From Nostoc sp. NMS4 (GTDB lineage Bacteria; Cyanobacteriota; Cyanobacteriia; Cyanobacteriales; Nostocaceae), in NCBI RefSeq assembly GCF_017115095.1, contig NZ_JABXKI010000265.1, positions 1 through 64,000 on the forward strand: a stretch of 64,000 nt of DNA, given 5' to 3'. Below are positions 14,183 through 59,312 of this stretch, one piece after another. Numbering within the stretch: the stretch's first letter is position 1; the number at the start of each line of letters is the position of its first letter. The notes beneath the pieces are model-generated. The model had not been told where the DNA came from, made no database searches, and saw only the letters and a list, made by a program, of their open reading frames with translations. The position numbers and the translations under genes are program-made.

Positions 14183-14456
14183 ATTTAATCTTTAATTAAA
14201 CAAGCTTAAACAGAGTTAAATCGTTTATTAATTTATTAATGAATTATAAATGGTATATTTAGTTCACTAAATACCATTTAATTTATATCGTGACAAACAA
14301 TATGTTTGAAAATATGGCATAAGCTCGACGATTATATTCCTTTGAATTAGACACACTTAAGCAGCTTTTTAGAAGGAAATAGCCCTGCCTTTGCCCTGAA
14401 GATATTAACCATTGTGGAATAGTTCAAAAATTACGTGCATTTTCCCAGGAGTGAAA

Positions 14457-17400
14457 ATGGAAAACCATAAAATTGAGTTATTGGAAAAACAGCCTGCTAA
14501 TTTAGAGGTTAAGCGAGAGTATCCTCATGTCTGTATTCATGACCTGTTTGAGCTTCAGGTAGAACGAACACCGTTAAATGTTGCAGTAATTTTTGAAAAA
14601 CAGCAACTGACCTACCGAGAATTAAATTCCCGTTCCAATCAGCTAGCGCACTATCTGCGGAGTCTGGGTGTTGGAGCCGAAGTTCTGGTTGGGATTTGTT
14701 TAGAACGCTCGCTCGATACAGTCATTGGACTACTAGGTATTCTCAAAGCTGGTGGGTCTTACGTGCCATTAGATCCAACTTATCCACAAGAGCGCCTAGC
14801 CTATATGGTAAAAGATGCCAAATTACCAGTGCTATTAACTCAAAAAAAAATGCTGGAAATTTGTGCTAATTTTCTACCCCACGAACAGTCAAATTCTGAA
14901 GTCAAAAGTCCGATAATAATCAGCATTGATAGTGATTGGGAGAAAATTGCCCAATATAACAAAGAAGACCTAATCAGCGAAGTAACGGCTAAAAATTTGG
15001 CCTATACCATCTACACTTCAGGCTCTACTGGTAAACCCAAAGGAGTACAGATTGAGCATCAATCTGTAATTAACCTTTTAATTTCTATGACCCGAGAGCC
15101 AGGGATAACAGCAGCAGATGTACTTTTGGCAGTTACTACTATATCTTTTGATATTGCTGGATTAGAAATTTACTTGCCCCTAATTGTGGGGGCAAGTCTG
15201 ATTTTGGTCAGTCGGGAAGTTGTGATTGACGGAGCAAAATTGATCAAGCAAATAGAGCAAGCAGATGCCACGCTCATGCAAGCAACTCCCTCTACTTGGC
15301 AAATGCTTCTGGCTGCTGGATGGCAGGGCAACAAACAACTAAAAATTCTTTGTGGTGGTGAAGCACTTTCACAAAAACTCGCGGCTCAATTGCAAGAAAA
15401 GAGTGCTTCTTTGTGGAATATGTACGGTCCCACCGAAACTACGATTTGGTCAACTATTTACCAAGTCAAGTCCAAAGATGAGAAAATCTCCATCGGACAC
15501 CCGATTGCCAATACTCAAATTTATATCCTAGATCATCAGTTGGAGAGCCAAACAGACTCATACCAGCTTGTTCCTATTGGCGAGGTAGGAGAATTGTACA
15601 TTGGTGGAGATGGTTTAGCTAGAGGCTATCTCAACCAATCAAAACTAACTGAGCAGAAATTTATTCTTGACCCCTTTAGTAATTCCCCTGACTCTCGCCT
15701 CTATAAAACAGGAGATTTAGTTCGCTACCTGCCAGATGGCAACATTGAATATATTGGACGCATAGATCACCAAGTTAAGATTCGCGGCTTCCGTATAGAG
15801 ACTGGAGAAATCGAAGCGACACTTAGTCAACACCCTAATGTGTTAGAAACTGTAGTTATTGCCCACAATGAAACGAACGGCGACAAACGCTTGGTAGCTT
15901 ATGTGGTTCCTTCTACAAAAGCCCAGGATGGATCTGATGATCTCAATCAGGTCAGCGAATTTCAAGCGGAACAGACTGCACAGTGGCAACAGATATGGGA
16001 CGAAGCTTATAGCCAGCCGACACTAGAAGACGACCCCACATTCAATATCAACGGCTGGAATAACAGTTATACAGGTCTGCCTGTTCCACCCCCAGAAGTA
16101 AAGGAGTGGGTTGAGCATACGGTGGCACGCATTCTCTCCCTTCAACCCAAACGCCTACTGGAGATTGGTTGTGGTACGGGTATGCTACTGTTTCGGATTG
16201 CTCCTCACTGCGCTCATTATTTTGGCACAGACATCGCTGAAGCATCTGTGCGTTATATTGAAGAGCAACTGAGCCAACAGGAGCAGAATGGGTTACAAGT
16301 AAGCCTGGCTCAAAAAGCCGCAGATAACCTAGAAGGGTTAGAAAATGAAGCTTTCGATACTGTAGTTATCAACTCCGTAATTCAGTATTTTCCCAGTATT
16401 AGTTACCTTGTTCAAGTTTTAGAAGGTATTGTACGGCACGTAGAGCCGGGAGGCTGTATCTTTGTTGGTGATGTTCTGAGTCTGCCTCTGTTACAAGCTT
16501 TCCACACCTCTGTACAGTTGTATCAAGCTCCCGCATCATTATCTACAGTTCAGTTGCGGCAGCGTATCCAGAAACGTATCAGCCAAGAAAAGAGGTTGGT
16601 CATCGACCCAGCTTTTTTTCTTGCTCTCAAGCAGCACTTACCACAGATTAGTGATGTAGAGATTCAGCTAAAGCGGGGACGCTATCATAATGAATTGGTT
16701 CGCTTCCGTTATGATGTAGTTCTGCGAGTAGGAATTGAGAACAAATCTACAATAGAGCATCCTTGGTTAGATTGGCAGCAAAAGCAGTTGACATTAAAAG
16801 CACTGCGGGAAATACTAGTCGAAACCGAACCGCCAATATTAGGAATACGCGGTATCCCTAATGCACGGATTTTCACAGATGTGAAGGCTCAAGAATTACT
16901 GGCTAGGAAAGATATCCCTCCCACTGTCGGAGAAGTACGCAATCTATTACAACAACTGACTCAATGGGTTATAGAACCAGAGGATATTTGGGCATTAAGC
17001 CAAGAATTACCTTATTTCATTAACATTACTTGGTCGCAGAATCATGGCGATGGCTGCTTTGATGTAGTCTTCCAACGCCAAAAAGTAGTATTAGCAAGGG
17101 AATCAAATGGCAAGATGGAATCTGCTGGCTTTTTCAAACCTTGGATTGCCTATGCCAATAACCCTGTACAAGAAAATAGTACAGAGCAGTTAGTGCCTCA
17201 GCTACGCAGTTTCCTGAAAGAAAAGCTGGCTGACTACATGATGCCCTCTGCTTTTGTAGTTATGGATAAATTGCCACTAACACCAAGCGGTAAAGTAGAT
17301 AGACAATCACTTCCTGCCCCTAATCAAACCAGACCAGTTTTAGAATCATTATTTGTTCCCCCTCGAGATGAAATTGAGGATAAATTGGCTGAAATTTGGG

Positions 17401-18815
17401 CGGAGGCACTAGAAATTGAGCCAGTAGGGATTTATGACAACTTCTTTGAACTGGGTGGACATTCGTTGCTAACTACTCAGATATTTAATCAGATTCGAGA
17501 ATTTTTCCAACTAGAGTTATCTCTACTTAACTTTTTTGAAAATCCCACTGTCAGTGGACTTGCGGCAGCGATTAATAATCGTGAACAGTCAGGTGTAAAC
17601 CACACAATCAAAGCCATAGATTTGCAAGCAGAAGTAGTTTTAGATGACCGTATTTATCCACCGGATGATTCAAAACAGCTAGTAACGGAACCTGCTCAAA
17701 TTTTCTTAACCGGGGCAACCGGATTTTTAGGAGCTTTTTTACTGCAAGAACTCTTGCAGCAAACCCAAGCCAATATTTACTGCTTGGTTCGGGCTACTAA
17801 TATTCAGGAAGCTCAACGGAAAATCCAAAAAAATCTGGAACATTATTTCCTAGAGAATGAATCTTTAAATCCGAGAATTATTCCCGTTTTAGGAAATTTA
17901 TCACAGCCGCTTTTAGGACTGTCTGAGTATGATTTTCGTCAGTTGGCTACCGAAGTTGATGTTATCTATCACAATGGGGCTTTGACCAATTTAATCTATC
18001 CCTATTCGGCGCTGAAAGCAACCAATGTATTAGGAACTCAAGAAGTTTTGAGATTAGCCAGTCAAATCAAACTCAAACCAGTTCATTATATCTCTACACT
18101 TGCCGTATTTGAGTCAGATACTTATTCTGGGATGAAGGGGATCAAAGAAGATGACGAGTTGGAAAAAACTGAAGGTCTTGATAATGGCTATGCTCAAAGT
18201 AAATGGGTAGCGTGTAAGCTTTTAAAAGCTGCTTCTCTGCGAGGAATTCCGATTAGTATCTATAGACCTGGTATGATCTCAGGGCATAGCCAAACTGGTG
18301 TCAGCAACACCAATGATATTATGTGCCGCTTGCTGAAAGCTTTTATCCAACTCGGAAATGCGCCTGCGTTGGATTGGATAATGGATATGACACCTGTTGA
18401 CTACGTAAGCAGTAGCATTGTTCATTTATCAAGGCAGAAAGAATCTATCGGCAAAGCTTTTCACTTGGTGAATACTCAGTCTTTGCACTTGAGCCAACTA
18501 ATTCAGGAAATTAACTCACTGGGCTATTCTATCCGACAAATTCCCTATCCTGATTGGCAAAAACAATTCCAAGAAGTAGTAAAGAATTATATTGATAATT
18601 CCCTCAGTTCTCTGTTACCAATCGTAACTGAAAAGATGCCTGGAAAGGAACTAACTTATTTAGAAACATCTTCAATGACATCTCAATCGTTTGATACTCA
18701 GAATACTCTGAATGGATTGGCGAAAACTTCTATTATTTGCCCGACAGTAGATGTTCAATTACTTAGGACTTACTTTTCTTATTTTCAATCTAGCGGTTTT
18801 GTCGGTACTCCCTAA
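14457..18815 (+). CDS. NRPS-like synthetase: adenylation domain with embedded methyltransferase, PCP, thioester reductase (no condensation domain)
   Basis: A domain (AYTIYTSGSTGKPKG, NMYGPTETTIW, YKTGDLVRY, GRIDHQVKIRGFRIE); SAM-MT (RLLEIGCGTGMLLF) between A8 and A10; PCP (DNFFELGGHSLLTTQ); reductase (IFLTGATGFLGAFLL, YAQSKW). SD (AGGAG) before ATG at 14457. Confidence 0.95.
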   Translation: MENHKIELLEKQPANLEVKREYPHVCIHDLFELQVERTPLNVAVIFEKQQLTYRELNSRSNQLAHYLRSLGVGAEVLVGICLERSLDTVIGLLGILKAGGSYVPLDPTYPQERLAYMVKDAKLPVLLTQKKMLEICANFLPHEQSNSEVKSPIIISIDSDWEKIAQYNKEDLISEVTAKNLAYTIYTSGSTGKPKGVQIEHQSVINLLISMTREPGITAADVLLAVTTISFDIAGLEIYLPLIVGASLILVSREVVIDGAKLIKQIEQADATLMQATPSTWQMLLAAGWQGNKQLKILCGGEALSQKLAAQLQEKSASLWNMYGPTETTIWSTIYQVKSKDEKISIGHPIANTQIYILDHQLESQTDSYQLVPIGEVGELYIGGDGLARGYLNQSKLTEQKFILDPFSNSPDSRLYKTGDLVRYLPDGNIEYIGRIDHQVKIRGFRIETGEIEATLSQHPNVLETVVIAHNETNGDKRLVAYVVPSTKAQDGSDDLNQVSEFQAEQTAQWQQIWDEAYSQPTLEDDPTFNINGWNNSYTGLPVPPPEVKEWVEHTVARILSLQPKRLLEIGCGTGMLLFRIAPHCAHYFGTDIAEASVRYIEEQLSQQEQNGLQVSLAQKAADNLEGLENEAFDTVVINSVIQYFPSISYLVQVLEGIVRHVEPGGCIFVGDVLSLPLLQAFHTSVQLYQAPASLSTVQLRQRIQKRISQEKRLVIDPAFFLALKQHLPQISDVEIQLKRGRYHNELVRFRYDVVLRVGIENKSTIEHPWLDWQQKQLTLKALREILVETEPPILGIRGIPNARIFTDVKAQELLARKDIPPTVGEVRNLLQQLTQWVIEPEDIWALSQELPYFINITWSQNHGDGCFDVVFQRQKVVLARESNGKMESAGFFKPWIAYANNPVQENSTEQLVPQLRSFLKEKLADYMMPSAFVVMDKLPLTPSGKVDRQSLPAPNQTRPVLESLFVPPRDEIEDKLAEIWAEALEIEPVGIYDNFFELGGHSLLTTQIFNQIREFFQLELSLLNFFENPTVSGLAAAINNREQSGVNHTIKAIDLQAEVVLDDRIYPPDDSKQLVTEPAQIFLTGATGFLGAFLLQELLQQTQANIYCLVRATNIQEAQRKIQKNLEHYFLENESLNPRIIPVLGNLSQPLLGLSEYDFRQLATEVDVIYHNGALTNLIYPYSALKATNVLGTQEVLRLASQIKLKPVHYISTLAVFESDTYSGMKGIKEDDELEKTEGLDNGYAQSKWVACKLLKAASLRGIPISIYRPGMISGHSQTGVSNTNDIMCRLLKAFIQLGNAPALDWIMDMTPVDYVSSSIVHLSRQKESIGKAFHLVNTQSLHLSQLIQEINSLGYSIRQIPYPDWQKQFQEVVKNYIDNSLSSLLPIVTEKMPGKELTYLETSSMTSQSFDTQNTLNGLAKTSIICPTVDVQLLRTYFSYFQSSGFVGTP

Positions 18816-19052: not shown

Positions 19053-19367
19053 ATGGCTTGGGTTTACCTAATATCAGCAATTCTCTTGGAAGTAGCAGGA
19101 ACAACCTGCATGAAGTTATCTCAAGGTTTCACCCGAATAGTGCCTTCTATATTCATGTTTATCTTCTATGGGCTTTGTTTTAGTTTTTTAACAATGGCTC
19201 TCAAAAAAATTGAAGTAAGCGTTGCTTATTCTGTCTGGTCAGGTATGGGAACTGTCCTGATTGTTAGCATTGGCATCGGGTGGTTTCAAGAATCTGTTAC
19301 TACTATAAAATTTTTATCTATAGCCATGATCATTATGGGAGTAATTGGCTTGAATTCCGGGAAATAA
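19053..19367 (+). CDS. Small multidrug resistance (SMR/EmrE-like) transporter
   Basis: MAWVYLISAILLEVAGTTCMKLSQGF; Glu in TM1; AYSVWSGMGTVLI. Confidence 0.92.
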   Translation: MAWVYLISAILLEVAGTTCMKLSQGFTRIVPSIFMFIFYGLCFSFLTMALKKIEVSVAYSVWSGMGTVLIVSIGIGWFQESVTTIKFLSIAMIIMGVIGLNSGK

Positions 19368-19403: not shown

Positions 19404-20240
19404 ATGAGTCAAGAAAAATATCTCAAAAATCGTGTTGCTCTAGTTACAGGGGGAGCCTCTGGTATGGGTCGCGCTATGGCTCTGGCTTTTGCTGAGGCTG
19501 GAGCTGATGTTGTCGTTGGTTCTCTGCTGACAGGTGGCGGGAGTAAAGCTCCTGGAGAACTCGTTTATCTGCCTGGTGCTGCGGAACTGGACAGGATAAA
19601 AAAGGAAATTGAGGCGCGGGGGGTGAGGGCGATCGCTACCAATCTTGATGTTTGCTCAATGGACTCTGTACAAGCTTTTTACGATGCAACAATTAAGGCA
19701 TTCGGAAAAGTAGATATCCTTGCTAATGCTGCTGGAATTAGCGCTGAACAGACAATCTGCGGTCATCCTGATCAGCTTTGGCATAAAGTCGTAGATGTCA
19801 ACGTCAATGGTGTTTATCGCACTATCAAGCTTTGTCTACCGGGAATGATTGAACGTAAGTGGGGGCGAATTATCAATATTGCCTCGACCGCAGCATCAGT
19901 AGGTGCCCCCGCTTCTGCTGCTTACTGTGCTTCCAAAGCAGCAGTAGTGGGCTTAACCCGTTGCGTAGCATTAGAGGGAGCACCGCACGGCGTATCCTGC
20001 AATGCCATTAGTCCTGGTTGGGTGCAAACTAACTTTGGTAAAATCTGGATGGTGCACATTGCCGAAACAGCGGAGGGGCAAAACAAAGATGAATATATCC
20101 AAGAAATAAAACAGATTAATCCTCAGAAGAGAATGATCCAACCCGAAGAGATTGGAGCGATCGCAGCCTTTCTGTGCCGCGAGGAAGCTTTTGGTATCAC
20201 CATGCAGGATATAACAATATCCGCAGGTTCGCTCTGGTAG
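19404..20240 (+). CDS. Short-chain dehydrogenase/reductase
   Basis: VALVTGGASGMGRAMA, NAAGIS, YCASKAAVVGLTR. Confidence 0.93.
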   Translation: MSQEKYLKNRVALVTGGASGMGRAMALAFAEAGADVVVGSLLTGGGSKAPGELVYLPGAAELDRIKKEIEARGVRAIATNLDVCSMDSVQAFYDATIKAFGKVDILANAAGISAEQTICGHPDQLWHKVVDVNVNGVYRTIKLCLPGMIERKWGRIINIASTAASVGAPASAAYCASKAAVVGLTRCVALEGAPHGVSCNAISPGWVQTNFGKIWMVHIAETAEGQNKDEYIQEIKQINPQKRMIQPEEIGAIAAFLCREEAFGITMQDITISAGSLW

Positions 20241-22207: not shown

Positions 22208-25200
22208 CTATTTCACCTTACCCCGGAAACGGATAAAGCCATAAGAATTAACTGGTGTACCTGGTGCAGTTGCATTTGGCACATTTCCCAAATTCACAAT
22301 TACTACACCGTTAGTATTACTACCATCACATTGAATACCAGGGTACTTAATCTTAGGGTCAACACCTGGGGAGAAATATTCTGCTGAATCTCCATCGCTG
22401 GTATTAGTTAAGGATTCAGTTGCACCATTATTTTGCCAAATGATACCCCGATCGCCACCTGGAAGACCACTGCTGTTTTTGGTGGGGAAACTATTGAATG
22501 CAGTCGGGATAAAAGTCATATTATCAGGAACGCGATCGCAGATCAAAACATTATTTGCTGTTCCATCACCTGCGGAGAGGAAATAGATAGTATATTCGAT
22601 TTCATCACTGGGCTTGACATTACCGCCATTGATGCCACCGAGCATGAAGCTATTTAAGGATGGCCATTTGTCGCTGTCCTTGGGCGGATCTGTTGGCGTG
22701 GGTTGGGTGGGAATGGTAATGGTATTATCATCGTAGGCATTACTTGGGGCATCAATATACCCGATCAAAGAATCCCCGCCAACGGTGGTAGTGCCGCCAT
22801 TAATCGCTGTGATTCGTTTGACTAAGAGAACATTCGGGTTATTGACCACTGCTGCGATCGCTACTGCATAATCTTCCACTTCACCAGCACTCCCAGCACC
22901 TGTTGGGCTGGGTGTTGTAACTGTACTAGTCGTAAACCGGAAATGAGCAAAGCTACTACCAAGGGTTGCATTGCTGGGTACGGTAAAGGTTAAAGTATTG
23001 TTTCCGGCATTGAGCGGAACATTATTAACTGTTGCAGCCGTTCCATTGGTGACGTTGGTCAAATTGAGCTGTTCGCCAGTATCAAAGACCCCATTTTTAT
23101 TAAAATCGATCCAGCTATTGAGAAAGCCCGCTGTTGAAGCGTTAACAGTAATTGTTGCAGTTTTGCCGGGAGCAAGACTTGAGGGCAAGGTCACGCCATC
23201 ATCCCCAGCATCGCCATTGGCATTTGCACTGTAGAATTGGCTATATTCTCCCGTTACAGTCGCGCCGAGGGTGGGATTACTACAACTGGGTGCGTGGGAA
23301 ACTTCACCATAACTGTTCGGTGCATCACCAAAGTCAGATACAAACTCAGTCTTGACGAAAAACCCACCAATAGAACCATAGTTCGAGAGGCGAATCTCAA
23401 CGATATCGCCAGCGTTCACCGAAATTGTGGATACGCTGCTTGCTGGTAAGTTAGTAGTATAAGTTAGAGTTGGATTTCCAACCCGCACTCCATTGACATA
23501 AATTTCCATCGCATCGTCAATATAAGCCCCTGGTTGTCCAAGGGTAATTCGGCCTTTAGTGGTTACTTGCCGCTTAAACACGATCGCCCAGTTAGGCTCA
23601 TCACCAGTGCTTCCGTAAGTTCTAAGTGGATAGTCTCCGTTAATCGGAACGTAGCCCTGAGATGGAAAGCTGCCGTTGATAACTGTTCGTAGCGGATTAA
23701 CAGCAGGATTTACGCTAATTGTTTGATCGTTAAAAGTAAAGGTGGGAATTCCTGCGCCAAATTTCGCAGTCCCACGCAGCGTTGGTAATCCAGTTGTACC
23801 ATAGTAGCCATTCGCAACAGTTTCGCTAGCAGCTGCCCCAGGAATCGGAAAATGACCAGTATAGAGTTGAGCGTCCCATTCACAGGTTAAAGGGGGATAG
23901 AAACCAAAATCTTGTCCGGTGATATTGGTAGTGCTAACTGTGACTGGCAAATTATCAGAAGTACCCAGTGTGTAGCCCAGAGGCACATCTGTATCAGCAA
24001 TGTCTACTTTAATTTTGTAAGTTCCAGCAACTACGTTAGTAAATTGATAAGTGCCGTCAGCTAGAGTTGTTACTTGCTGGATGATTTCACTCGTCGTATT
24101 AAGTTCATCATTGTTATCGTTATCTTTGTAGAGAATCACACGAATATTACCAATTCCCGGCTCACCATTATTTGTACTACTGCGATCGCTATCCTGGTAA
24201 AGCGTCCCAGAAATGCTGATGGGCTGCTTAATCCCAAAGTCCTTACTAGAGATGTTTGTGCCGGTATTAAAAGCAGCCGTCGTTAGTGGGCTAGTATTGA
24301 CCCAGCTAGAAGGGAGCGATGCTGTAGGGGCAGTATTACCGACTGTGCCAGCAGTCGTACTTAAGATAATTTTGACGTTATTTTGATTCAGGGGGACATC
24401 AAGAAAGGTGTAAGTACCATCTGCGGCGACAGGTGTTGTTTTTAAGACCTTATTATTAGAATCTACGAGAATGGCATTTAACAATCCACCTGCATTAGTG
24501 CCAGTTTCCGAGCCAGTATTAATATTAGTAAAAGTATTATTAGCACTATTGTCTACATCATTCCAAACCTTACCACTGAGGAAATCATCATCATAGATGG
24601 TGTAGTCAGAAACACTTGTTGGGGTACCGCCACAAGTCGTTGTCGAACTGTTAAAAAAACTAGATGAAGGTTGGATTGTGAATACAATTGTCCTCACACC
24701 TTGAGGAATGTTGTTATTAATAACAGTAAAGGGAATGGTAAAGACACTAGTGGCGTTACTACCGTCATAGTTGCCCGCAGGGATAGTGACATTAAAAGTA
24801 GATGTGCCGGATGTTGTATTGTAGTCTGTACCCAGAACCGCTGTACCAGAGACGGAAATCGGAACAGTGATTCCCCCAGTTGGCACTAAACCAACAATCC
24901 TGAGTTTTGGGGGGTTGCTGGTAGGATTAGTTTCTGATTCTGCTGCACCACCAGAACTCGCTGTAAACTCGACCACAGCTTTACCAGCAAATTGGACTTC
25001 ATCAAGGAAGTTACCTATAGTATTGTTCGCACCGGCTGTAGAAACAGCTGCAAATCCTACAGGTTTATTCCCAGAAGCACCAGTGTAAGGAACAGTGCCA
25101 GTGTATCGTACCCAGCCATTTCCGGCGTTATTGTTACTTACAGTAGGAATAGTTGCACCATTTTGGGCGACTGGTTGTGCCGTAACTTTTCCATTGCTAG

Positions 25201-25726
25201 TTGTTGAAAATGTGCCAAAAACAGTTGGTGCTGGATCGGTATTTAGTCCAATTAAAAAATTGGCTACATCAGCAATAGTTGAACTTGAACGCCCACGATG
25301 TAAAAAAGAGAATGTAATCGTCTCATTTTTAATTAAGCACATATTCTGATACAACTCAGAATTTTGTTCAGCATTTAACTCAGCAAATTGATTTCCTGCA
25401 CTAGTTGGTGTCGTTGCTGTGCTAACACTATTAAATCCTGTTGTCCAAATCTCAATCAGTGGTACTGTTCCTGGAGATGCATAACCATTACAGTTACCTC
25501 CTCCCGCCTTGACTGAGCCATGAGTTGTTTCCCAACCAGGGATAATACCTGGCGACACTTGAACGTAACATTTTTGACCAGCAGAACCGAAAACAGGTGA
25601 CTCAAAACTGGGATTTATAAACGATCGCTGGATATATTGAGCTTGCGCTTGTGTAGGTTGAAGTACTAATGTCGCACCAATCAGCCCCCAGCCAAAAGTA
25701 TTAAAATTTTGCCATAAATTCTTCAT
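22208..25726 (-). CDS. Large secreted protein with SdrD-B-like, Calx-beta-like, GEVED and DUF11-like domains
   Basis: Signal peptide; ISGTLYQDSDRSSTNNGEPGIGNIRVILYKD..DGTYQFTNVVAGTYKI; DFGDAPNSYG...GEVEDYAVA. Confidence 0.85.
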   Translation of the reverse strand: MKNLWQNFNTFGWGLIGATLVLQPTQAQAQYIQRSFINPSFESPVFGSAGQKCYVQVSPGIIPGWETTHGSVKAGGGNCNGYASPGTVPLIEIWTTGFNSVSTATTPTSAGNQFAELNAEQNSELYQNMCLIKNETITFSFLHRGRSSSTIADVANFLIGLNTDPAPTVFGTFSTTSNGKVTAQPVAQNGATIPTVSNNNAGNGWVRYTGTVPYTGASGNKPVGFAAVSTAGANNTIGNFLDEVQFAGKAVVEFTASSGGAAESETNPTSNPPKLRIVGLVPTGGITVPISVSGTAVLGTDYNTTSGTSTFNVTIPAGNYDGSNATSVFTIPFTVINNNIPQGVRTIVFTIQPSSSFFNSSTTTCGGTPTSVSDYTIYDDDFLSGKVWNDVDNSANNTFTNINTGSETGTNAGGLLNAILVDSNNKVLKTTPVAADGTYTFLDVPLNQNNVKIILSTTAGTVGNTAPTASLPSSWVNTSPLTTAAFNTGTNISSKDFGIKQPISISGTLYQDSDRSSTNNGEPGIGNIRVILYKDNDNNDELNTTSEIIQQVTTLADGTYQFTNVVAGTYKIKVDIADTDVPLGYTLGTSDNLPVTVSTTNITGQDFGFYPPLTCEWDAQLYTGHFPIPGAAASETVANGYYGTTGLPTLRGTAKFGAGIPTFTFNDQTISVNPAVNPLRTVINGSFPSQGYVPINGDYPLRTYGSTGDEPNWAIVFKRQVTTKGRITLGQPGAYIDDAMEIYVNGVRVGNPTLTYTTNLPASSVSTISVNAGDIVEIRLSNYGSIGGFFVKTEFVSDFGDAPNSYGEVSHAPSCSNPTLGATVTGEYSQFYSANANGDAGDDGVTLPSSLAPGKTATITVNASTAGFLNSWIDFNKNGVFDTGEQLNLTNVTNGTAATVNNVPLNAGNNTLTFTVPSNATLGSSFAHFRFTTSTVTTPSPTGAGSAGEVEDYAVAIAAVVNNPNVLLVKRITAINGGTTTVGGDSLIGYIDAPSNAYDDNTITIPTQPTPTDPPKDSDKWPSLNSFMLGGINGGNVKPSDEIEYTIYFLSAGDGTANNVLICDRVPDNMTFIPTAFNSFPTKNSSGLPGGDRGIIWQNNGATESLTNTSDGDSAEYFSPGVDPKIKYPGIQCDGSNTNGVVIVNLGNVPNATAPGTPVNSYGFIRFRGKVK

Positions 25727-25920
25727 TAGTAAATCACCATAAAATTACCTTTAAAAGATGCTGAATAATGCATTTGGCAAATGTTTTATTTTCAGCACAA
25801 AATTTTTCCTGGAGAGATAACAAATTTCAAGTCTCTAAATTGTTGCAATTCGGACAGTGCGATCGCTTATTTTTAGGTTTAGCAACGTGTAAAAAAAATA
25901 ACAGCATATCAAGATTTATC

Positions 25921-27642
25921 CTAGTGATTGTTCTTAGATAGATCAATTGACCGGACTATCACGTTGATAGCAGGTTCAGAAGTACCATATTGGGGATGAG
26001 TAGCGATCGCACTGAAGCGATCGCCCGCTTTTAGGTTTCCCGATTTATACGAGAATCTACCATCAGAATTCACATTCACCTTTGCAATTACTTTATTTAG
26101 CGTCCCCGGATTTTCCGTATCTTCACTAACTCGATAAATTTCTACTACAGAACCAGGGCTAGCAAACCCATCTAAAACCACTGTTCCATCCTGGGTACTA
26201 ATGAAAAATTCTGGACTCAAAAAGCGTGGGGCATCAATGCCAAAATTACCTGTTTTGCGATGACGCTGATATGTGTCATTTACCGGATTCGCCCCATCAC
26301 CTTGCTGATAGTCTTGCACACCAACATGGTATTGAGTCACCAAGTCAATGCTCAATCCTTTTAAATCAGCAAACTGATTATTTTGAATCCGGTTTCCCTG
26401 GCTTGGGGGATAAGCCGCTACTACCACACCTGGCCCAGACTGATCGCTAATCTGGTTATTGATTACTTCATGGTTATTACCCATCAAATAAATCGCCGCC
26501 CGTCGCAACATCTGACCATTATTTGCGATCGTATTAGAATCAATTTTTACTGAACCTTCTGGCTTAAAAAGATATACTGCACTACCAGCATTTTTATCGA
26601 TTTGGTTGCCGATAATTTGAGAATTATTAATTAGCCCTTCTAAACGAATAGCATCAGGCATTCCAGCAAAACCATTGCCAGTAATAATATTGTTTTTAAC
26701 TAGCAAATTTTCTGCTCTAACTGAGGTAATAATGGCGCTACCATCATGATTAGCAATGCGGTTATTTTGGATAACTGTATTTACACCATTAAAAACAGAA
26801 ACTCCAAAGGCAGAATTGCTTGGAGGTCTAGTTTCAATGATAATATTTGGTGATATACCCAACCAGTTATTTTCGATGACGACATTCGTTGGTGGTGGTT
26901 GTTTAATATCGATTGGGCTAATGAAAATATCCGCAGGGGGAAGACTCGCCGTATCACCGTGGCGAGAAGTGAAACCATAGAGGCTCAAACCCCGAATCGT
27001 GATATTACTTGCTGCTACCGTCAAACCGCGAAAAATTACAGAATTATATGCGGGAGTTATGGTGACAGTTGGTGTTGGCACTGAGTTAAGATACTGCCCT
27101 TGCCCCAACGGCCCTAACTGCCCTAACTGGTTCCCAGTCTGTAGGCTGGGAACCCATTCTGGGAGGCTCCGCCTCCTCTTTGTTGACGAGAGGCAGAGCC
27201 TCTCGAAATACATTCCCAGCCTAGAGGCTGGGAACGAGGTTAACGAGGTGACACAAGCTTTTGAGCTTTTTTTAGTGCCATTGGTAACAGATGGTGTTGA
27301 TGTGCCTTCAATTACTAAGCCTGGATTAGTCAGAGGTGGTAAGATTTCTCTGAGTTGGATAGTATTTTGTTCGGAAGGCAAATTAAACTCAATGCGGGAC
27401 GTACCTTTAGCAGCGAGAGATTGCACTTGAGTTTTTTCGCGATCGCTCAACTTATCAATAGACAAAGTACCATTGACAATGGCGATCGCCTCACGTAAAG
27501 TCACGACATCATCAGCTTTGATAGCGCCATCTTGATTACTATTCACCACAACTCGCACAGACAAGTTTTGAGTCTGACTAACAGCAATATCTGGTAGTGT
27601 CACCAGAAACAAAAAAACAGCTAGACTAATTTGAAGTTTCAT
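25921..27642 (-). CDS. Secreted right-handed parallel beta-helix protein
   Basis: Signal peptide; repeated NNxI/NNxxxG ladder (VIQNNRIANHDGSAI, LVKNNIITGNGFAGM, IIGNQIDKNAGSAV); N-terminal DDVVTLREAIAIVN. Confidence 0.85.
   Translation of the reverse strand: MKLQISLAVFLFLVTLPDIAVSQTQNLSVRVVVNSNQDGAIKADDVVTLREAIAIVNGTLSIDKLSDREKTQVQSLAAKGTSRIEFNLPSEQNTIQLREILPPLTNPGLVIEGTSTPSVTNGTKKSSKACVTSLTSFPASRLGMYFERLCLSSTKRRRSLPEWVPSLQTGNQLGQLGPLGQGQYLNSVPTPTVTITPAYNSVIFRGLTVAASNITIRGLSLYGFTSRHGDTASLPPADIFISPIDIKQPPPTNVVIENNWLGISPNIIIETRPPSNSAFGVSVFNGVNTVIQNNRIANHDGSAIITSVRAENLLVKNNIITGNGFAGMPDAIRLEGLINNSQIIGNQIDKNAGSAVYLFKPEGSVKIDSNTIANNGQMLRRAAIYLMGNNHEVINNQISDQSGPGVVVAAYPPSQGNRIQNNQFADLKGLSIDLVTQYHVGVQDYQQGDGANPVNDTYQRHRKTGNFGIDAPRFLSPEFFISTQDGTVVLDGFASPGSVVEIYRVSEDTENPGTLNKVIAKVNVNSDGRFSYKSGNLKAGDRFSAIATHPQYGTSEPAINVIVRSIDLSKNNH
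27077..27279. mobile_element. MITE-like repeat inserted within the beta-helix CDS
   Basis: Inverted ends ggcactgag...ttagtgcc; internal hairpins ggttcccag...ctgggaacc and ggctccgcctcc...; second partial copy at 21527. Confidence 0.75.
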
Positions 27643-30600
27643 ATTTTCCCTACCTCTGTTACCTTGCCCCTTTGCTGGCGGATTTTTTGGATCAGGGTTT
27701 GCACTGTGGACTCTTTGTGCTGACGGGGAGCAATCTTTTGTTGTCCAAAGCCATCAAACAATTCGTTGAGTTTGACTGTTAAACCTAAATACGCACCTCC
27801 CGCAGAACGTGCGCCAGAAAAATCTCGGTCATCAACTTTACCAAACACGTATCCAGCCGAAAGGCGCAGATTAGGAGTCAGATAGTAACCTGTTTCCAAA
27901 ACAAAGCCTGTCTCAGAATAGTTAGATTGACCAATCCAACGAGCCTCACCGACTAAATCCCAGCTATATCCCAAACGATAAGTTGCTCGCAATTGAGCCA
28001 GATTAACTGTGCTAGTACCAGCTAAATCGTTGGCTATGTAAGAAGTACTATTACGTAGAGCATACTTACCATAGAATTCCCATTGCCAGTTAGGAGCATA
28101 GATAGTTTCTAATGCGAAGGTATGGTCTTGGGAACCCGTACCACTTCCTAACAAAATGGTGTCAGGGATGGTTGAAGGATTTTGACGATATTCATAACGC
28201 AATAAAGCATTAAAGTTATCGTTGTTTGGGTCACGGTAAGCTAAACCCAACTTCAAGTTAGCGGTATCTCCCAATCCTGAAAGCTTTTGATTGGAAGAAC
28301 CGGCTTGTTGATAACGTACTAAAGCCGTGAGAGCCGGAGAAATTTTACCTGTAGCCCCGGCGGTAATTACTGTATTACTACCACTAGAAGATGAGCGATG
28401 TTCATAGCGGGCGCTAGCTTGAAATTGCGGATTATCAGTGTATTCCAACCCGACGCTATAACTATCACCACCCTCAAATCCGATCGCTGATGCAGATTGA
28501 CCAACAGCAAAGGGTTGAGCAAATTGTTGACCTGCTCCAGTCCGTCCGAAGAAGTTCCCAAATACGTGTTCGTAAGCTGTGTTTAACCGCAATCCTGGAG
28601 CAATAGTCCAACGGTTATTTAGACCGATCGCCCCTTGGGTAGTCATTTCATTGGCACCACCCAATATTGAGTAACGACCGGTCAAGGTAGTATCTGATCC
28701 GAGTTTGTGTTCACCGTTGACACTCAAGCTGGTGATGGCATTACCCGAATATTGACCACTAGTGTAAAACTGTTGAGCTAGACTGACATTGACACCAGGA
28801 ATTACCGCCCAATTCAACCCTAAAATAGTCCGATCTGGATAAACACTATCTTTTTGGGAAGATAAGCTGAGTTCATTTTGGGCTTGGAAAGTCAGGTTTT
28901 TAGCTAGAGGAACTGAAAAACGCGATCGCAATTGATCGGAATTACCACTTAAAGCAGCGTCGGGGATGCGGTCTTCTCGTTGACGATGAATCCAATCCAC
29001 ATCGAGAGTAGCTTTACCTAAACGTTGTTGAATACCGGCGGAAATCGTTGTCAGGGAATTATCAACCTTACTTCCAGGTATGGCCTCAGAACGCGGAGCA
29101 AAGAGTTCTTCTAAGGTATCTAGTGGTTGGGGAGCAATACCAAAATTGTCTTCGTGGTCATATTGCACCCTGACGTTAGTGCTTGGGGTAACTTTAGCTG
29201 TAACCTGCGCTCCATAACGAGTTTGTCCGGGGACAAAGCTGATGGTGGCATTATTGGCAAAACCGGTATCAGCAAAACGATAATAGGCGCGGCCTTGAAT
29301 CCCATTCGCAATTTGTCCCTCAGCTTCTAACCGATACGCATCACCTCTGACTTTTCCTACCACATCAGAATCATTACTAGAATGGGCATATTCTGCGATT
29401 AATCTACCCTTTTCACCCAAAGAAATCAGTGCATCTGCACCGTAGAGTTGAAAGTCACGCACTCCCTGATGTTCTTGGACGTAAGTTGCTCCAATCCAAC
29501 TTTCCTGGTTCAACTTGCGGGAAAGATTATATTGCAAACGACCAGCATAGATACTGCCGTCAGAGTCTTGGCTGTCGTATTGATAGGTAACAACAATCCG
29601 ACGTACCAATACTTGTCCAGCTTCATCAATATCAGTACGAAGAATCGGTTCGCGGAATATTAAGGTACCGCGATCATAGTCGATTTCGTAGTCTGGTCCT
29701 CGGTTTAGCTGCTTCCGTTTTAGTACAGTACCAGGACGATTGAGTTCTTCTAACTCAATAAAGACATTTTCACTACCTGGTTGTAATATTCGGCGAGAGA
29801 GGAAGTAATAACCACTAGTACCATCGGGAGCAATAGTATCTCGTTGAAAGCCTTCTAAATGGTTGCCATACAAACCTGTAATTTGTAAGTCTCCTAAGTT
29901 GTAGTTGGCTTTAAAGCCGTGGAGTTGACGGGTGATAGAAGTAAATTGCTGCGATCGCCGCGCAAATTCTTCTGTGTTGTAGTCACCCCACATGGCATAA
30001 TCAGGACTGGAGCCAGGGATACTAGTCGATCGCTCAAGACGCAGAAATACACTGTCAATAGAAGGAGTGACAACATCAACTTTCGAGCTATCGCCGTAGA
30101 CAGGATAGTTTTGCTCGCTAGATTGGTAAGTTCTAAACAGGCGATTATTGCAGTCGCAATCTTCATTCAGACTACGAGAACTGTTATATGCACCTGTAAA
30201 CAACCATTCGCCGATCGCACCAGTCGCAAATACTGCTGAGTGAAAATCTAATTGCGTTCCGTTGTTTTTGTCAGGAGGAAGAAAATCACGGAAACTGCCG
30301 TAATAATTTGTCCCTCTAGCGCCCAAACGTAAATCTACTACCCCTGTCACCAAACTTGGACGGAGTGCGGTTTCAAATTGTAGTTGAGTAAAAGCTTCTA
30401 AATCATTAGCTGTGGCGCGAATTGTGACAGTTTCAGCTTTGAGTTGCGATCGCAAACTCGCTGTAAATTGTCCTCCTTTCGCCTCCACTTGAAATCCAGG
30501 TTGATCGGGTTTGAAGTCTGTTCCCACAAACTCTCCAGCACTGGGTATCAAAGTGATAACAGCATCGCGGTTAGAGCGATTACCATTAGCATCAATCAGT

Positions 30601-31544
30601 TGACCCTTGATTGTAGCCGTCGAACGTCCATCTGCGGGAATACGAGACTCAACTGTTTCTAAAGTTAGTTTTCCTGGCGCTCCCCGGACTGCAACTTGCA
30701 CCGTTACAGGGGGTTCTGTTGCACCAACAACTTGTGCAGATATGGTGTTTATACCTTCTTTTAACGAGACACCATACCATGTCTGCGTCATTAAGTTAGT
30801 AGTGGCATCAGTTTCCGTTCGTCCAATTAAGGAAGAGTCTGCTAAGTTGCCATTCACCCGCAATTCCACTTTACTACCAACAGGAAATTGCAAAACGACG
30901 GTGGTAGCTTGTACATCTACAACACTGTCAGGCGTTGGAGTCAGGATTTTGATTCCTGTAGAGATGGGGGGGGATGGGGGAGATGGGGGAGGTGGGGGAG
31001 GTGGGGTAGTTTCGGCTACTCCGGCAATTTTGCGTAAACCTTTAGGTAAATCGACAGAAGTTGCTGGCTGAAATGGTTGTATTTCTGTTGGAGAAGCTTG
31101 AAACTGTTGCTCAGTGTCTTTGGCTTCGTCGTTATTATCCTCTACTCCGGCAATTTTGCGTAAGCCTCTAGGCAAATTAACCGAAGTTGCTGGTTGAAAT
31201 GGTTGTATTTCCGTTTCAGTTGGCTGGATATCTGCAATTGAAGGATTAGTAGCTGGTGCTGGAGGAGTGGAGGCAATTTCTAGAGGTGCAAACTGCTGCT
31301 GAGAACTTCCCAAAAGATCGGCAGAATTTAGGCGTTGCTGAATTCTTCTCCTTAGCTTTGCACCTTTGTCTTCAAACGTTTTCATAGCTGGGTTAGGCTG
31401 CGCCAACATGGGCTTCTGGCGATCGGAGTTTTCGCTGAGTTCTGCTTTGACTATTGCAGGATACAAAACGAGGCTGAGAGCTACTACTGGCATCGCCCCC
31501 ATCAATTTCAGATTAAATATACTATGGTGCAGTCTGGGTTTCAT
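27639..31544 (-). CDS. Large cell-envelope protein with predicted C-terminal outer-membrane beta-barrel and Ig-like/invasin-type N-terminal region
   Basis: Signal peptide; duplicated EIQPFQPATSVxLPxGLRKIAGV; Pro-rich linker; long alternating beta-barrel-like C-terminal region. Confidence 0.7.
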   Translation of the reverse strand: MKPRLHHSIFNLKLMGAMPVVALSLVLYPAIVKAELSENSDRQKPMLAQPNPAMKTFEDKGAKLRRRIQQRLNSADLLGSSQQQFAPLEIASTPPAPATNPSIADIQPTETEIQPFQPATSVNLPRGLRKIAGVEDNNDEAKDTEQQFQASPTEIQPFQPATSVDLPKGLRKIAGVAETTPPPPPPPSPPSPPISTGIKILTPTPDSVVDVQATTVVLQFPVGSKVELRVNGNLADSSLIGRTETDATTNLMTQTWYGVSLKEGINTISAQVVGATEPPVTVQVAVRGAPGKLTLETVESRIPADGRSTATIKGQLIDANGNRSNRDAVITLIPSAGEFVGTDFKPDQPGFQVEAKGGQFTASLRSQLKAETVTIRATANDLEAFTQLQFETALRPSLVTGVVDLRLGARGTNYYGSFRDFLPPDKNNGTQLDFHSAVFATGAIGEWLFTGAYNSSRSLNEDCDCNNRLFRTYQSSEQNYPVYGDSSKVDVVTPSIDSVFLRLERSTSIPGSSPDYAMWGDYNTEEFARRSQQFTSITRQLHGFKANYNLGDLQITGLYGNHLEGFQRDTIAPDGTSGYYFLSRRILQPGSENVFIELEELNRPGTVLKRKQLNRGPDYEIDYDRGTLIFREPILRTDIDEAGQVLVRRIVVTYQYDSQDSDGSIYAGRLQYNLSRKLNQESWIGATYVQEHQGVRDFQLYGADALISLGEKGRLIAEYAHSSNDSDVVGKVRGDAYRLEAEGQIANGIQGRAYYRFADTGFANNATISFVPGQTRYGAQVTAKVTPSTNVRVQYDHEDNFGIAPQPLDTLEELFAPRSEAIPGSKVDNSLTTISAGIQQRLGKATLDVDWIHRQREDRIPDAALSGNSDQLRSRFSVPLAKNLTFQAQNELSLSSQKDSVYPDRTILGLNWAVIPGVNVSLAQQFYTSGQYSGNAITSLSVNGEHKLGSDTTLTGRYSILGGANEMTTQGAIGLNNRWTIAPGLRLNTAYEHVFGNFFGRTGAGQQFAQPFAVGQSASAIGFEGGDSYSVGLEYTDNPQFQASARYEHRSSSSGSNTVITAGATGKISPALTALVRYQQAGSSNQKLSGLGDTANLKLGLAYRDPNNDNFNALLRYEYRQNPSTIPDTILLGSGTGSQDHTFALETIYAPNWQWEFYGKYALRNSTSYIANDLAGTSTVNLAQLRATYRLGYSWDLVGEARWIGQSNYSETGFVLETGYYLTPNLRLSAGYVFGKVDDRDFSGARSAGGAYLGLTVKLNELFDGFGQQKIAPRQHKESTVQTLIQKIRQQRGKVTEVGKI

Positions 31545-33082
31545 TTCTTGACTGGCTCCTGAAATGTGGGGGTGACAGCGAAGTTCATGCGTACCAAGCC
31601 ACCAGGCTCTAAACGCACCAAACGAGATTGACTATTCCGTTCGCGGAATTTTTGGTTAGGAGCTAAGGTATAACCAGGGAGACTGCTGAGGTCTAATACA
31701 CCTGTGTGGTATCCAGGTAAGGCATTAGCTAAGGAGAACAAACCATTGGGATCTGTAGTGATGCGGTTTCCGTCCTCCAGAAAAATCACTGCATTTGGGA
31801 TTCCAGGTTCACCGGGTTGCTGTTCACCGTCAAAGTTTTTATCAACAAACACGCGACCGATAATCGTGCCACAGTCAGAAACAATTCCAGGACTAATTTT
31901 CAATTGATGGGTTGCTGGGCCATCCTTGACGCTAAAATTGTTATCATCTCGTTGGGCATTTGCGATCGCACTATTACGACCATCACCACGCAACGAATCG
32001 GGTGTTAGTTGAGCAGCATAGGCAATATTCAAGACTTTCTCGCTAGGAATCGTGACGTTTGTGCGGAATGTCACTGTGTTACCATTGCGCTCTGAGGTAA
32101 TCGCCACTGGTTGACCATCCACCTCTCCCCGCAAAACTTTCGGCAAAAAATCGAATCCTAAAGGGAGGCTGTCGGTGACAAATATATTATTCAAACCAGC
32201 ATCAGCAAGATTTTTTAGCGACAGGCGATAGATTACCGTATCTCCAGGTTCAGCAGCAGCGCGATCGCCTGTTTTGATAATCTGCAACTGATTGGCTTGG
32301 CACATATTTGTAGTGAATTCAAAGGCTGATAAGTCTAGTCCTACTGTTTCTGCATTAGGAACTACAACAACTGTTTGCTCTACTCTGGTTTCGCCTGTAA
32401 GATTGATTGGTTGACCATCTAGAGAACTAGCTACATATCGCACCACATTATTACTTTGTGTGCTAGTGCTAGTAAGAATTTCAATCTTGATCCGTCGCTG
32501 TTTGTAGATAGAATTTGGTGGTGCATTGACTACAAAAATGTAGATTCTACCCGGATCGGTTTGACCTCTATTCGGATCGAGTAGGAAATTGTAGACACCC
32601 GCAGGGTCATTGTTAAGAAAGTAGGGGTTACTATTCTCGGTATTTGGCGATTTACCGCCAGGAATTTTGTTGTTAGGAATATCTGGGAACTCTGTTCGAG
32701 TTAAAGCAAGCAAGCTACCCAATTCTGTCCCCGTTGGGTCGCTAGGATTAGGTTCATATAAGCCAACTGAAAAATTTGTATAGTCAGGTAAAATTGAGCC
32801 AGCGCAACCTAAAATCCGTCCTAATGGATCGATTAATGGTGCAGGAGTAACACTAAGCTGACTAGAATTTCCTTGATATTGATAATTAGTAGCCGAATCT
32901 GTATAAGTATAAGCAGCTTGATTGATGAATGGCACAGACGCAGCCAGATTCTTAGTCTGTTGTGCGATCGCTGGTAAAACTATAGTAGTATGCAAAAAAC
33001 TTCCCAGGAGAACAGTTGTTGTTAACCGTCGCCACCAGTTCTTGCTAGAAGTAATTTGCTTTTGGTATTGAGGACGGCTCAC
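31541..33082 (-). CDS. DUF11 / SdrD-B-like secreted protein
   Basis: LQIIKTGDRAAAEPGDTVIYRLSLKNLADAGLNNIFVTDSLP; GTIIGRVFVDKNFDGEQQPGEPGIPNAVIFLEDG. Confidence 0.85.
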   Translation of the reverse strand: MSRPQYQKQITSSKNWWRRLTTTVLLGSFLHTTIVLPAIAQQTKNLAASVPFINQAAYTYTDSATNYQYQGNSSQLSVTPAPLIDPLGRILGCAGSILPDYTNFSVGLYEPNPSDPTGTELGSLLALTRTEFPDIPNNKIPGGKSPNTENSNPYFLNNDPAGVYNFLLDPNRGQTDPGRIYIFVVNAPPNSIYKQRRIKIEILTSTSTQSNNVVRYVASSLDGQPINLTGETRVEQTVVVVPNAETVGLDLSAFEFTTNMCQANQLQIIKTGDRAAAEPGDTVIYRLSLKNLADAGLNNIFVTDSLPLGFDFLPKVLRGEVDGQPVAITSERNGNTVTFRTNVTIPSEKVLNIAYAAQLTPDSLRGDGRNSAIANAQRDDNNFSVKDGPATHQLKISPGIVSDCGTIIGRVFVDKNFDGEQQPGEPGIPNAVIFLEDGNRITTDPNGLFSLANALPGYHTGVLDLSSLPGYTLAPNQKFRERNSQSRLVRLEPGGLVRMNFAVTPTFQEPVKK

Positions 33083-39625: not shown

Positions 39626-41767
39626 TTAGGGTTTGGTTGGCGGTGGATTGGTGGAATTAGGAAATGGCAGAGTTGGTACGATTATAGGCTTTGGTTTTTC
39701 GTCTTGCAGTTGGCCTTGTAGTTGAATTTGGGCTTGATTGCGAGCGTCTATTGCTTGTTGGTAATTAGGCTTGTATTTTATGGCACGATCGTAAGAAGCG
39801 ATCGCATCTTGATATCGTTTCAAATTTAATAGAGCGTTACCTCTGCTAAACCAGCTTTCGGAATGGTCTGGTTTATAACGAACTGCCTTATTATAAGACG
39901 CGATCGCATCTTCGTATTTCTGCAATATGTATTGTGAATTTCCTAAATTGTACCAGAGTTGATAGTCGTTTTGCTTAATAGTTGCCGCCTTATTATAAGA
40001 TTCTATTGCTTCTTCATAGCGTTTATTTTGATGCAGCGACCAACCCAAATTATACCAGGCTTGATAGCTTCTGGGATTGTATTTAATTACTTGATTAAAA
40101 GATTCAATCGCTTCTGGATAACGTTGCAAATTCAGCAATATATTACCTCTAGATAACCAAGCTTGATAATAAGTTGGTTGATATTGCACCGATTTATCAT
40201 AAGCTGTAAACGCATCTTGATAGCGTTTTAAATTGACTAGTGCATTCCCTAAATTATACCAGGCTTGCTCATAATCTGGTTTTAAATCAACGACTTTTTG
40301 ATAGGCTGCGATCGCTTCTTCATATCGTTTAGAATTCTGCAAAGCTAATCCTTTTTTATACCAAGCTTCGTAATTATCTGGTTTGAGTTCAATCGCCTTT
40401 TCATAAGATTTAATTGCTTGGTCATATTGGTTTAAATTACTGAAAGCTTCACCCTTAGCATTCCAGACATCTGAGTTGTCATTATTTAATTCTAAGGCTT
40501 TGTCAAAAGAGGCGATCGCTTCTTGATATCGCTGTAAATTTCCCAATACAGAACCACGTCCAATCCAAGCATCTAAATAATCTGGCTGAATTTGAATTGC
40601 TTTGTCATAGGCTGCTAATGCGTCTTTGTATTTTTTTAATTTATTTAGCGTTTTGCCTTGACCATTCCAGCCTTGAGCATAATCTGGTCTAATATCAACT
40701 GCTTTTTCATATACTTCTAGTGCGTCTTGATAGCGTTGCAAATCAAAAAGCGTATTTCCTTGTTTAGATAATTCTATAGCATTCTTTGAATTAATGTGAT
40801 TCCAAATAAATATTGATGCTACTGTGCCAACAGCCAGGAAAAATATTGTTAGTAAAATTTTACCCAATATACCTTTTTTGGGTTGAGGTTTGTAGATATT
40901 TTTTGGTGGAGAAGGAGGAATTAACGCTATTGTTTCAACAGGTGGTTGGGTTAACTCTTTCAGCGCTCGTAATGCCACAGTTGCCGAAGGATAGCGTTGT
41001 CGAAAGTCGTAGCACACCATTCTATCTAAGAATTGAGCAAATTCTGGTGTTACCGTAGCTTTATCATGCCAGATAATTTCATTAGTATCAGCATCTTTGA
41101 CTATTTCCTCTGGTGATAATCCAGTCAAAGCTTGAATAGCAATTATTCCCGCAGCATAGATATCACTGCTCAATTTGGGCGTACCATGAGCTTGTTCGCC
41201 AGGGATATATCCAGGAGTACCGATAGCGACTGTTGCGATAGTTTGACCTTGAGGAGTAATAACTTGAGTAGCAATTTGTTTGACTGCACCAAAATCAATT
41301 AAAATTAATTTGCCATCTGGTTGTCGTCTGAGGATATTTCGGGGATTGACATCACGATGAATTACATTTTGTTGGTGGACAAATTCTAAGATTGCTAAAA
41401 GTTCTTGTAAAAGTGAAATTACTTCTTCTTGAGTGAGGATTTTACCTGAAGTTAATTCTTGACTCAAATCGTGACCTTCGATCAATTCTTGTACAAGATA
41501 GAATTCGGCATTTTCTTCAAAATAAGCTAAAAGTTGGGGAATGCGATCGTGAGTTCCTAATTTATACAGAACTTGCGCTTCCGTATCAAATAAACGCCTA
41601 GCTGTTTCCAAAGTTACCGGATCGCTTGCCTGGAGTTTGAGTTTCTTGACGACACATAGAGGTGAACCAGGTAATTGGGTATCACAAGCCACAAAAGTTT
41701 CACCAAAACCCCCACCTCCCAAGTTGCTAATAATTTGGTATCTTCCTACAAGTGTGTTTCCTAGCAT
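39626..41767 (-). CDS. Serine/threonine protein kinase with C-terminal TPR repeats
   Basis: GGGGFGETFVACD, VIHRDVNPRNILRR, LIDFGAVKQ; one TM; about 10 TPR units (YQDAIASYDKAIKYKPN). Confidence 0.97.
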   Translation of the reverse strand: MLGNTLVGRYQIISNLGGGGFGETFVACDTQLPGSPLCVVKKLKLQASDPVTLETARRLFDTEAQVLYKLGTHDRIPQLLAYFEENAEFYLVQELIEGHDLSQELTSGKILTQEEVISLLQELLAILEFVHQQNVIHRDVNPRNILRRQPDGKLILIDFGAVKQIATQVITPQGQTIATVAIGTPGYIPGEQAHGTPKLSSDIYAAGIIAIQALTGLSPEEIVKDADTNEIIWHDKATVTPEFAQFLDRMVCYDFRQRYPSATVALRALKELTQPPVETIALIPPSPPKNIYKPQPKKGILGKILLTIFFLAVGTVASIFIWNHINSKNAIELSKQGNTLFDLQRYQDALEVYEKAVDIRPDYAQGWNGQGKTLNKLKKYKDALAAYDKAIQIQPDYLDAWIGRGSVLGNLQRYQEAIASFDKALELNNDNSDVWNAKGEAFSNLNQYDQAIKSYEKAIELKPDNYEAWYKKGLALQNSKRYEEAIAAYQKVVDLKPDYEQAWYNLGNALVNLKRYQDAFTAYDKSVQYQPTYYQAWLSRGNILLNLQRYPEAIESFNQVIKYNPRSYQAWYNLGWSLHQNKRYEEAIESYNKAATIKQNDYQLWYNLGNSQYILQKYEDAIASYNKAVRYKPDHSESWFSRGNALLNLKRYQDAIASYDRAIKYKPNYQQAIDARNQAQIQLQGQLQDEKPKPIIVPTLPFPNSTNPPPTKP

Positions 41768-58976: not shown

Positions 58977-59312
58977 ATGCAAAAGCAAATTTTGAGTTTA
59001 GCGATCGCATTACCAACGATATTATTCACTGCCTTACCGACTTTGGCAAATCCTATAGAATCTATTACACCCAAAGTTGGTAATTTACAACCAGTTTTGG
59101 TACAAGGGGAGTTTCAAGATTCTGTAATTAATAATCAACTCAGAAACCCAGGGGATGGCCAATCACCGGGGCCAGAAGGTGGTAGCAAACCGGTAAAAGG
59201 CCCAGGCCCCAAACCTCCTCGCAAAGATACGTTGTTGCAAAACCTGGGTACAGGTTTACAACAAGATAGGATCAATAATTTGAACATAGCGAACCCCGTT
59301 CTAGGTCGCTAA
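58977..59312 (+). CDS. Small secreted Pro/Gly-rich protein of unknown function
   Basis: Signal peptide [49 protein letters not shown]. Confidence 0.65.

Follow-up and report, generated by a model that had tools for sequence, protein, structure and literature searches.

This study concerns a nonribosomal peptide synthetase (NRPS) gene in a 64,000-nucleotide stretch of DNA from Nostoc sp. NMS4 (the whole of which is referred to here as the window), together with the two genes behind it, which encode a small multidrug resistance (SMR) exporter and a short-chain dehydrogenase/reductase (SDR). The synthetase consists of adenylation (A), methyltransferase (MT), peptidyl carrier protein (PCP) and reductase (R) domains. 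The features at the locus are as follows.

14447..14451, + strand: Shine-Dalgarno-like AGGAG ahead of the NRPS ATG at 14457 (sequence reading)
14457..18815, + strand: stand-alone NRPS, A-MT-PCP-R, 1452 amino acids (aa) in one open reading frame (ORF) from ATG, without a condensation (C) domain
14547..15926, + strand: A domain, aa 31-490, with the glycine code DILQLGMIWK (Pfam, code extraction, code literature)
15954..17006, + strand: S-adenosylmethionine (SAM) methyltransferase inserted between motifs A8 and A10, aa ~500-850 (nearest solved relative TioS MT, 5WMM)
17283..17303, + strand: A10 motif PSGKVDR (aa 943-949) with the invariant lysine K946 (code extraction)
17379..17573, + strand: PCP, aa 975-1039, with the phosphopantetheine serine in GGHSL (Pfam, motif)
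17697..18800, + strand: terminal thioester reductase domain with TGATGFLG and YAQSK (TIGR01746; nearest solved relative MxaA R, 4U7W)
19053..19367, + strand: SMR exporter, EmrE/Qac-like, with the glutamate of the first transmembrane helix (TM1) kept (Pfam, nearest relatives)
19404..20240, + strand: classical SDR with Y-x3-K kept (Pfam, nearest relatives)

The domain order had been proposed in an original prediction made by eye, and it was borne out by four Pfam matches far over cut-off, namely AMP-binding (31-392), Methyltransf_12 (568-668), PP-binding (975-1039) and NAD_binding_4 (1084-1321), and by a TIGR01746 thioester reductase match at aa 1081-1448 (369 bits, over cut-off). Its claim that the C domain is missing also held, with no Condensation match in the 1452-aa protein by Pfam and no C-domain remnant in the 1.1 kb upstream of the gene by tblastn with C-domain queries. 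The MT lies where it had been placed, flanked by A8 (KIRGFRIE, about 441-448) and A10, with the A core motifs and the A10 lysine on either side of it as in other interrupted A domains. The R domain is C-terminal and carries both the nucleotide motif and the expected YxxxK, here YAQSK, as in reductase-terminated NRPSs. Every catalytic motif checked is intact (EIGCGTG, GGHSL, TGATGFLG and YAQSK), including that of the MT, whose degeneration had been named beforehand as a ground for doubt.

Amongst solved structures the MT is nearest to the interrupted A-MT protein TioS (E 3e-47, aligned over 307 residues) and the R domain to the myxalamid reductase MxaA (E 3e-110, 372 bits, full length). Because the motifs are intact and these are the nearest solved relatives, glycine loading, N-methylation and reductive release may be inferred for this enzyme. 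A phosphopantetheinyl transferase (PPTase) gene is present in the genome of the strain.

Motif-anchored extraction of the code residues (D232, I233, L236, Q275, L298, G300, M322, I330, W331 and K946) returned the same string that had been read by eye. The assignment to the glycine type stands, while the description of the code as very close to published glycine codes was too weak, as DILQLGMIWK itself has been reported for four Gly-activating domains by a survey of bacterial adenylation domains from 2025 (PMC12283262).

Stand-alone modules across the Cyanobacteriia

The window NRPS is no isolated oddity; it represents one clade within a family of stand-alone A-MT-PCP-R enzymes that extends across the Cyanobacteriia. 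The family-level survey (218 genomes) turned up such proteins in a dozen more genomes, and the class-level sample in about 16 of its 390. Its two closest full-length relatives amongst the 218 genomes, on contigs G085:C36 (66%; this relative ends at the contig end) and G124:C88 (64%), form one clade with it at full support, and the Gly code is kept in the two nearest relatives (loci L009 and L117). Tree support for the placement of this clade relative to C-containing modules is only 16.

The codes of the family fall into three groups. These are a Gly type (DILQLGxxWK, DMPQLGMVWK and one DIPELGLVWK), an Ala type (DLFNNALTYK) and the DAEDIG, DTEDIG and DVENIS types, which probably specify basic amino acids. 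Behind DTEDIG/DAEDIG-code synthetases lie an NNMT/PNMT-like methyltransferase (L207 12154-12924; L206 has a homologue) and a HalD-like halogenase (L208 12146-12880), downstream genes that fit amine chemistry. PPTase genes adjoin the synthetases of L038 and L204.

Given that codes predict imperfectly and that relatives of the same architecture carry Ala and DAEDIG-type codes, the window A domain might take a small substrate other than glycine, be it alanine or a more unusual amino acid; alternatively, the locus might be silent or decaying. Both the identity of its code with a reported Gly code and the full set of catalytic motifs in a 1452-aa frame make this quite improbable. From glycine, the window NRPS probably produces a small amino-aldehyde or amino-alcohol that is N-methylated.

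Modules closely resembling this one, with codes of the Gly type, also terminate larger NRPSs as C-A-MT-PCP-R (L019, L123, L124, L127 and L128). By analogy, the window enzyme could act in trans as a split terminal module, a C domain encoded elsewhere taking the sarcosyl-PCP before a peptide aldehyde or alcohol is released. We consider such a role unlikely, as there is no C-domain partner within the surveyed neighbourhood, the C-less form is stable across several clades at great divergence, and the relatives are partnered by sensors and not by further NRPS genes.

Co-variation of synthetase code and kinase sensor in the relatives

At 19 loci the next same-strand gene downstream of the synthetase, after a gap of 46-379 nt, encodes an orthologous hybrid histidine kinase (c1) with dCache sensor, HisKA, HATPase and REC domains; in L215 this kinase comes after a split-off R-domain ORF. 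A second kinase (c2, a REC-kinase) usually follows c1. One of the 19 loci may serve as an example.

L118 7067-15793: operon of A-MT-PCP-R, dCache hybrid kinase and REC-kinase

All 12 sensors of at least 68% identity retrieved in the family search adjoin a stand-alone A-MT-PCP-R gene. The c2 kinase was also considered as a specific marker of the operon and rejected, with c2-like kinases present in all seven genomes tested, often in many copies; the c1 sensor is the sole informative kinase marker.

Sixteen operons from several families, eight with an Ala code and eight with a Gly code, were compared, the labels being taken from the A-domain codes; the co-variation was first spotted in the alignment and then measured, so that the tests are not blind. 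Identity within types exceeded that between types most strongly in the A specificity region (by 48 points), followed by the sensor (13 points), as against 2.5 in R and 1.5 in MT, while PCP, kinase core, REC and c2 showed differences of about 0. For the sensor, the true labeling was unbeaten among 12870 labelings, its mirror labeling aside. Columns without a residue common to the two types numbered 67 in the A specificity region and 24 in the sensor, and none separated the types in MT, PCP, R, kinase core, REC or c2. A sliding window along the operon gave two isolated peaks, at NRPS 121-390 and kinase 61-240, the stretch between them and that behind the second staying near zero.

On the sensor tree the code changes a single time, as against six on the kinase-backbone tree, and a single Ala clade is rejected on both the kinase backbone (approximately unbiased test, p-AU 1e-84) and the MT-PCP-R tree (p-AU 5e-6). 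Within genus g4, loci of both code types have a c2 that matches that of L118 (Gly) at 94-97% identity, while the A domain and the sensor differ. It was also observed that L131, L132 and L133, compared with L118 and L119, represent Gly/Ala A-domain swaps in a single syntenic position, where the c2 kinases share 93-99% identity.

This co-variation of synthase and sensor specificity in the relatives, separate from the remaining operon, is the principal new result, and it suggests a signal synthase with its cognate receptor. Adjoining genes can travel together, though, and the match could be one of linked inheritance, with the two-component genes regulating the synthetase on an unrelated cue; independent contrasts on well-supported branches number only four (six on all branches), and the concordance of four out of four gives a sign test p of 0.125. 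This explanation appears rather doubtful in view of the MT, PCP and R domains, which lie between the two co-varying segments and co-vary barely or not at all, of c2 and the c1 kinase core behind the sensor, neither of which co-varies, and of the relatives of the sensor, which are amine receptors.

By sequence and predicted fold, the sensor is nearest to the dCache_1AM amine receptors. A profile of 17 sensors found its best relatives in the PDB in the betaine receptor PacA (7PSG) and a Methanosarcina mazei kinase (3LIB); the amino-acid receptor PctA ranked behind them. The AlphaFold model of a Gly-type sensor (pLDDT 88, pTM 0.84) had 3LIB, MkcA, PacA and the histamine receptor TlpQ amongst its top Foldseek matches. 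3LIB binds dimethylamine at 0.5 µM, and another member of its domain class binds ethanolamine at 2.3 µM (PMC10104139). The c1 sensors do not conserve the arginine with which amino-acid receptors grip the carboxylate; this matches the expectation for a ligand with a reduced carboxylate. In the alignment with 3LIB, the Asp in GLDINV is invariant, the carboxylate Arg is replaced, hydrophobic and Ser/Thr positions are kept, and the Arg-Asp pair was not located. The RxWY amino-acid motif was also looked for in the sensors and set aside; it occurs only in some Gly-type sensors, off the aligned ligand-Arg position.

The window cassette and the proposed amine signal

The SMR and SDR genes had been predicted to form a three-gene cluster with the NRPS, and both proved to be real genes behind it. 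The grouping is found again in an independent genome of another genus (G124, locus L117), where the NRPS (62-64% identity), a divergent SMR (73%) and the SDR (69%) occur in a different gene order. Strong SDR matches were obtained in only four of the 218 family genomes (the window, G124, G106 and G032), all of them adjoining NRPS genes or fragments of the window type, and in the window only among the 390 class genomes. Because its matches adjoin such modules, the SDR goes along with the N-methylating glycine module type. The window SDR has a window-specific insertion of about 17 residues relative to its nearest relatives. The SMR is a four-helix protein of the EmrE/Qac subtype and has the TM1 glutamate. 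It was rejected as a specific marker of the cassette, similar SMRs being present in 127 of the 218 family genomes, and its association is weaker than that of the SDR because such SMRs are common.

The SDR also occurs beside hybrid clusters of NRPS and polyketide synthase (PKS). In L164 3258-15341 (G032:C147), one protein with a partial C-A-MT-PCP-KS-AT-KR-ACP-TE arrangement is followed by an MT, an SDR and a sulfotransferase, and L163 1-9857 (G085:C697) encodes consecutively an MT, an SDR (frameshifted in the assembly), an SMR, a partial C-A-MT-PCP and KS-AT, possibly a sarcosine-primed hybrid cluster. With SDR, partial C-A-MT-PCP and KS-AT combined at these two loci, the window cassette might be a part or reduced form of such clusters, its SDR and SMR serving a sarcosine-primed polyketide and its product a building block or a remnant. 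There is little to recommend this for the window itself, where no KS or AT was found among the genes flanking the cassette; G124 keeps the R-terminated NRPS with SMR and SDR and no PKS alongside, and in G106 the SDR adjoins an R-domain fragment.

In the route we favour, the A domain would adenylate glycine and load it on the PCP, and the embedded MT would N-methylate the bound glycine to a sarcosyl thioester. The reductase with NADPH would then release N-methylaminoacetaldehyde, or 2-(methylamino)ethanol if reduction occurs a second time. The SDR would probably act in the aldehyde/alcohol conversion or in another, related redox reaction, and export of the cationic product would probably fall to the EmrE-type SMR. 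Across the family, the product would be a secreted amine signal, read in most sampled relatives by the downstream dCache kinase. That the NRPS alone makes a small N-methylated amine, and that the family product is best read as such a signal, is in our view the best explanation of the locus, with a rough probability of 0.55. A fuller version, which we put just short of even odds, is a hitherto undescribed amine signalling system of cyanobacteria, in which single-module NRPSs make N-methyl amino-aldehydes or alcohols from Gly, Ala or basic amino acids and the dCache hybrid kinases encoded with them read the products. The A domain and sensor would be swapped as a pair on a constant kinase backbone, and the window would be a receptor-less branch that gained an exporter and an SDR.

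Several observations weigh against this interpretation. No c1 sensor match was found in the window genome at E<=1e-40. The window SMR is 74-75% identical to stand-alone SMRs elsewhere compared with 70-71% at the related loci, and its adjacency to the NRPS could reflect late recruitment. The SDR, accompanying C-A-MT-PCP/PKS hybrids as well, may have a substrate different from the free aldehyde. The chemical route as a whole is read from sequence, in which the numbers of methyl groups and electrons are not legible. There is also no kinase gene in the window cassette, and the window clade either has lost the c1 kinase at this locus or did not have it in the first place. Because this clade is without the kinase, the signalling reading does not carry directly to the window, and a signalling role there, argued from the family, is suggested more weakly than in the relatives.

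Each part of the proposed system has known counterparts. MxaA resembles the window R domain in sequence; it ends a long PKS-NRPS line, whereas the window module stands alone and is N-methylating. Reductive release from NRPSs to alcohols was reportedly described by Barajas in 2015 (cited in PMC8949500). TioS, similar to the window MT, is a module of the thiocoraline assembly line that is neither C-less nor reductive. Fungal glycine betaine reductases (ATRR-type NRPS-like enzymes) reduce an N-methylated glycine on a carrier, but they load ready-made betaine, have two reductases and lack an MT. HamD of the ham (valdiazen) cluster has a single-module architecture, and in the ham and pvf (valdiazen, leudiazen) signal clusters N-oxygenase partner genes adjoin the NRPS. 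The ham pathway involves diazeniumdiolate chemistry and is not known to include an embedded MT or a dCache kinase as partner. The genes flanking the window NRPS are those for the SMR, the SDR, ArgC and aminopeptidase P, and ham/pvf-type N-oxygenase partner genes are not among them. HamD ends in a reductase, and the alcohol product of its pathway is a bacterial signal (PMC11659414). PacA and the M. mazei kinase resemble the operon sensors, but their own ligands are environmental amines, and in the literature consulted on them they are not co-encoded with an NRPS. Four-electron release by LtxA, the lyngbyatoxin synthetase, was reportedly the subject of work by Read and Walsh in 2007 (cited in PMC11659414). 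Unlike the window NRPS, LtxA is a bimodular dipeptide synthetase with a C domain. This NRPS is of cyanobacterial origin, and its terminal reductase depends on NADPH (PMC3252866).

The literature searched, which did not cover MIBiG, so that a characterised cluster could be missed, contained no one-module NRPS making a free N-methylated amino-aldehyde or alcohol in cyanobacteria, no matching product and no NRPS-kinase pair. The original prediction's remark that the product is not obvious from known pathways agrees with this, neither a product nor a characterised family having been found there. The parts are thus known, while a conserved cyanobacterial family of N-methylating, reductive stand-alone enzymes with a matched sensor was not encountered in that literature. 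If the interpretation is correct, cyanobacteria would have a small-molecule signal and a receptor to match, along with a natural set of specificity swaps for studying synthase-sensor co-evolution. The candidate ligands, 2-(methylamino)ethanol and N-methylalaninol, are small and stable.

Elsewhere in the window, on the - strand, a run of large ORFs at 22208-33082 encodes one GEVED-domain protein, one beta-helix protein and two proteins without a Pfam match. A Ser/Thr kinase-TPR protein is encoded at 39626-41767 (-) and an nSTAND1-WD40 protein at 59272-63951 (-).

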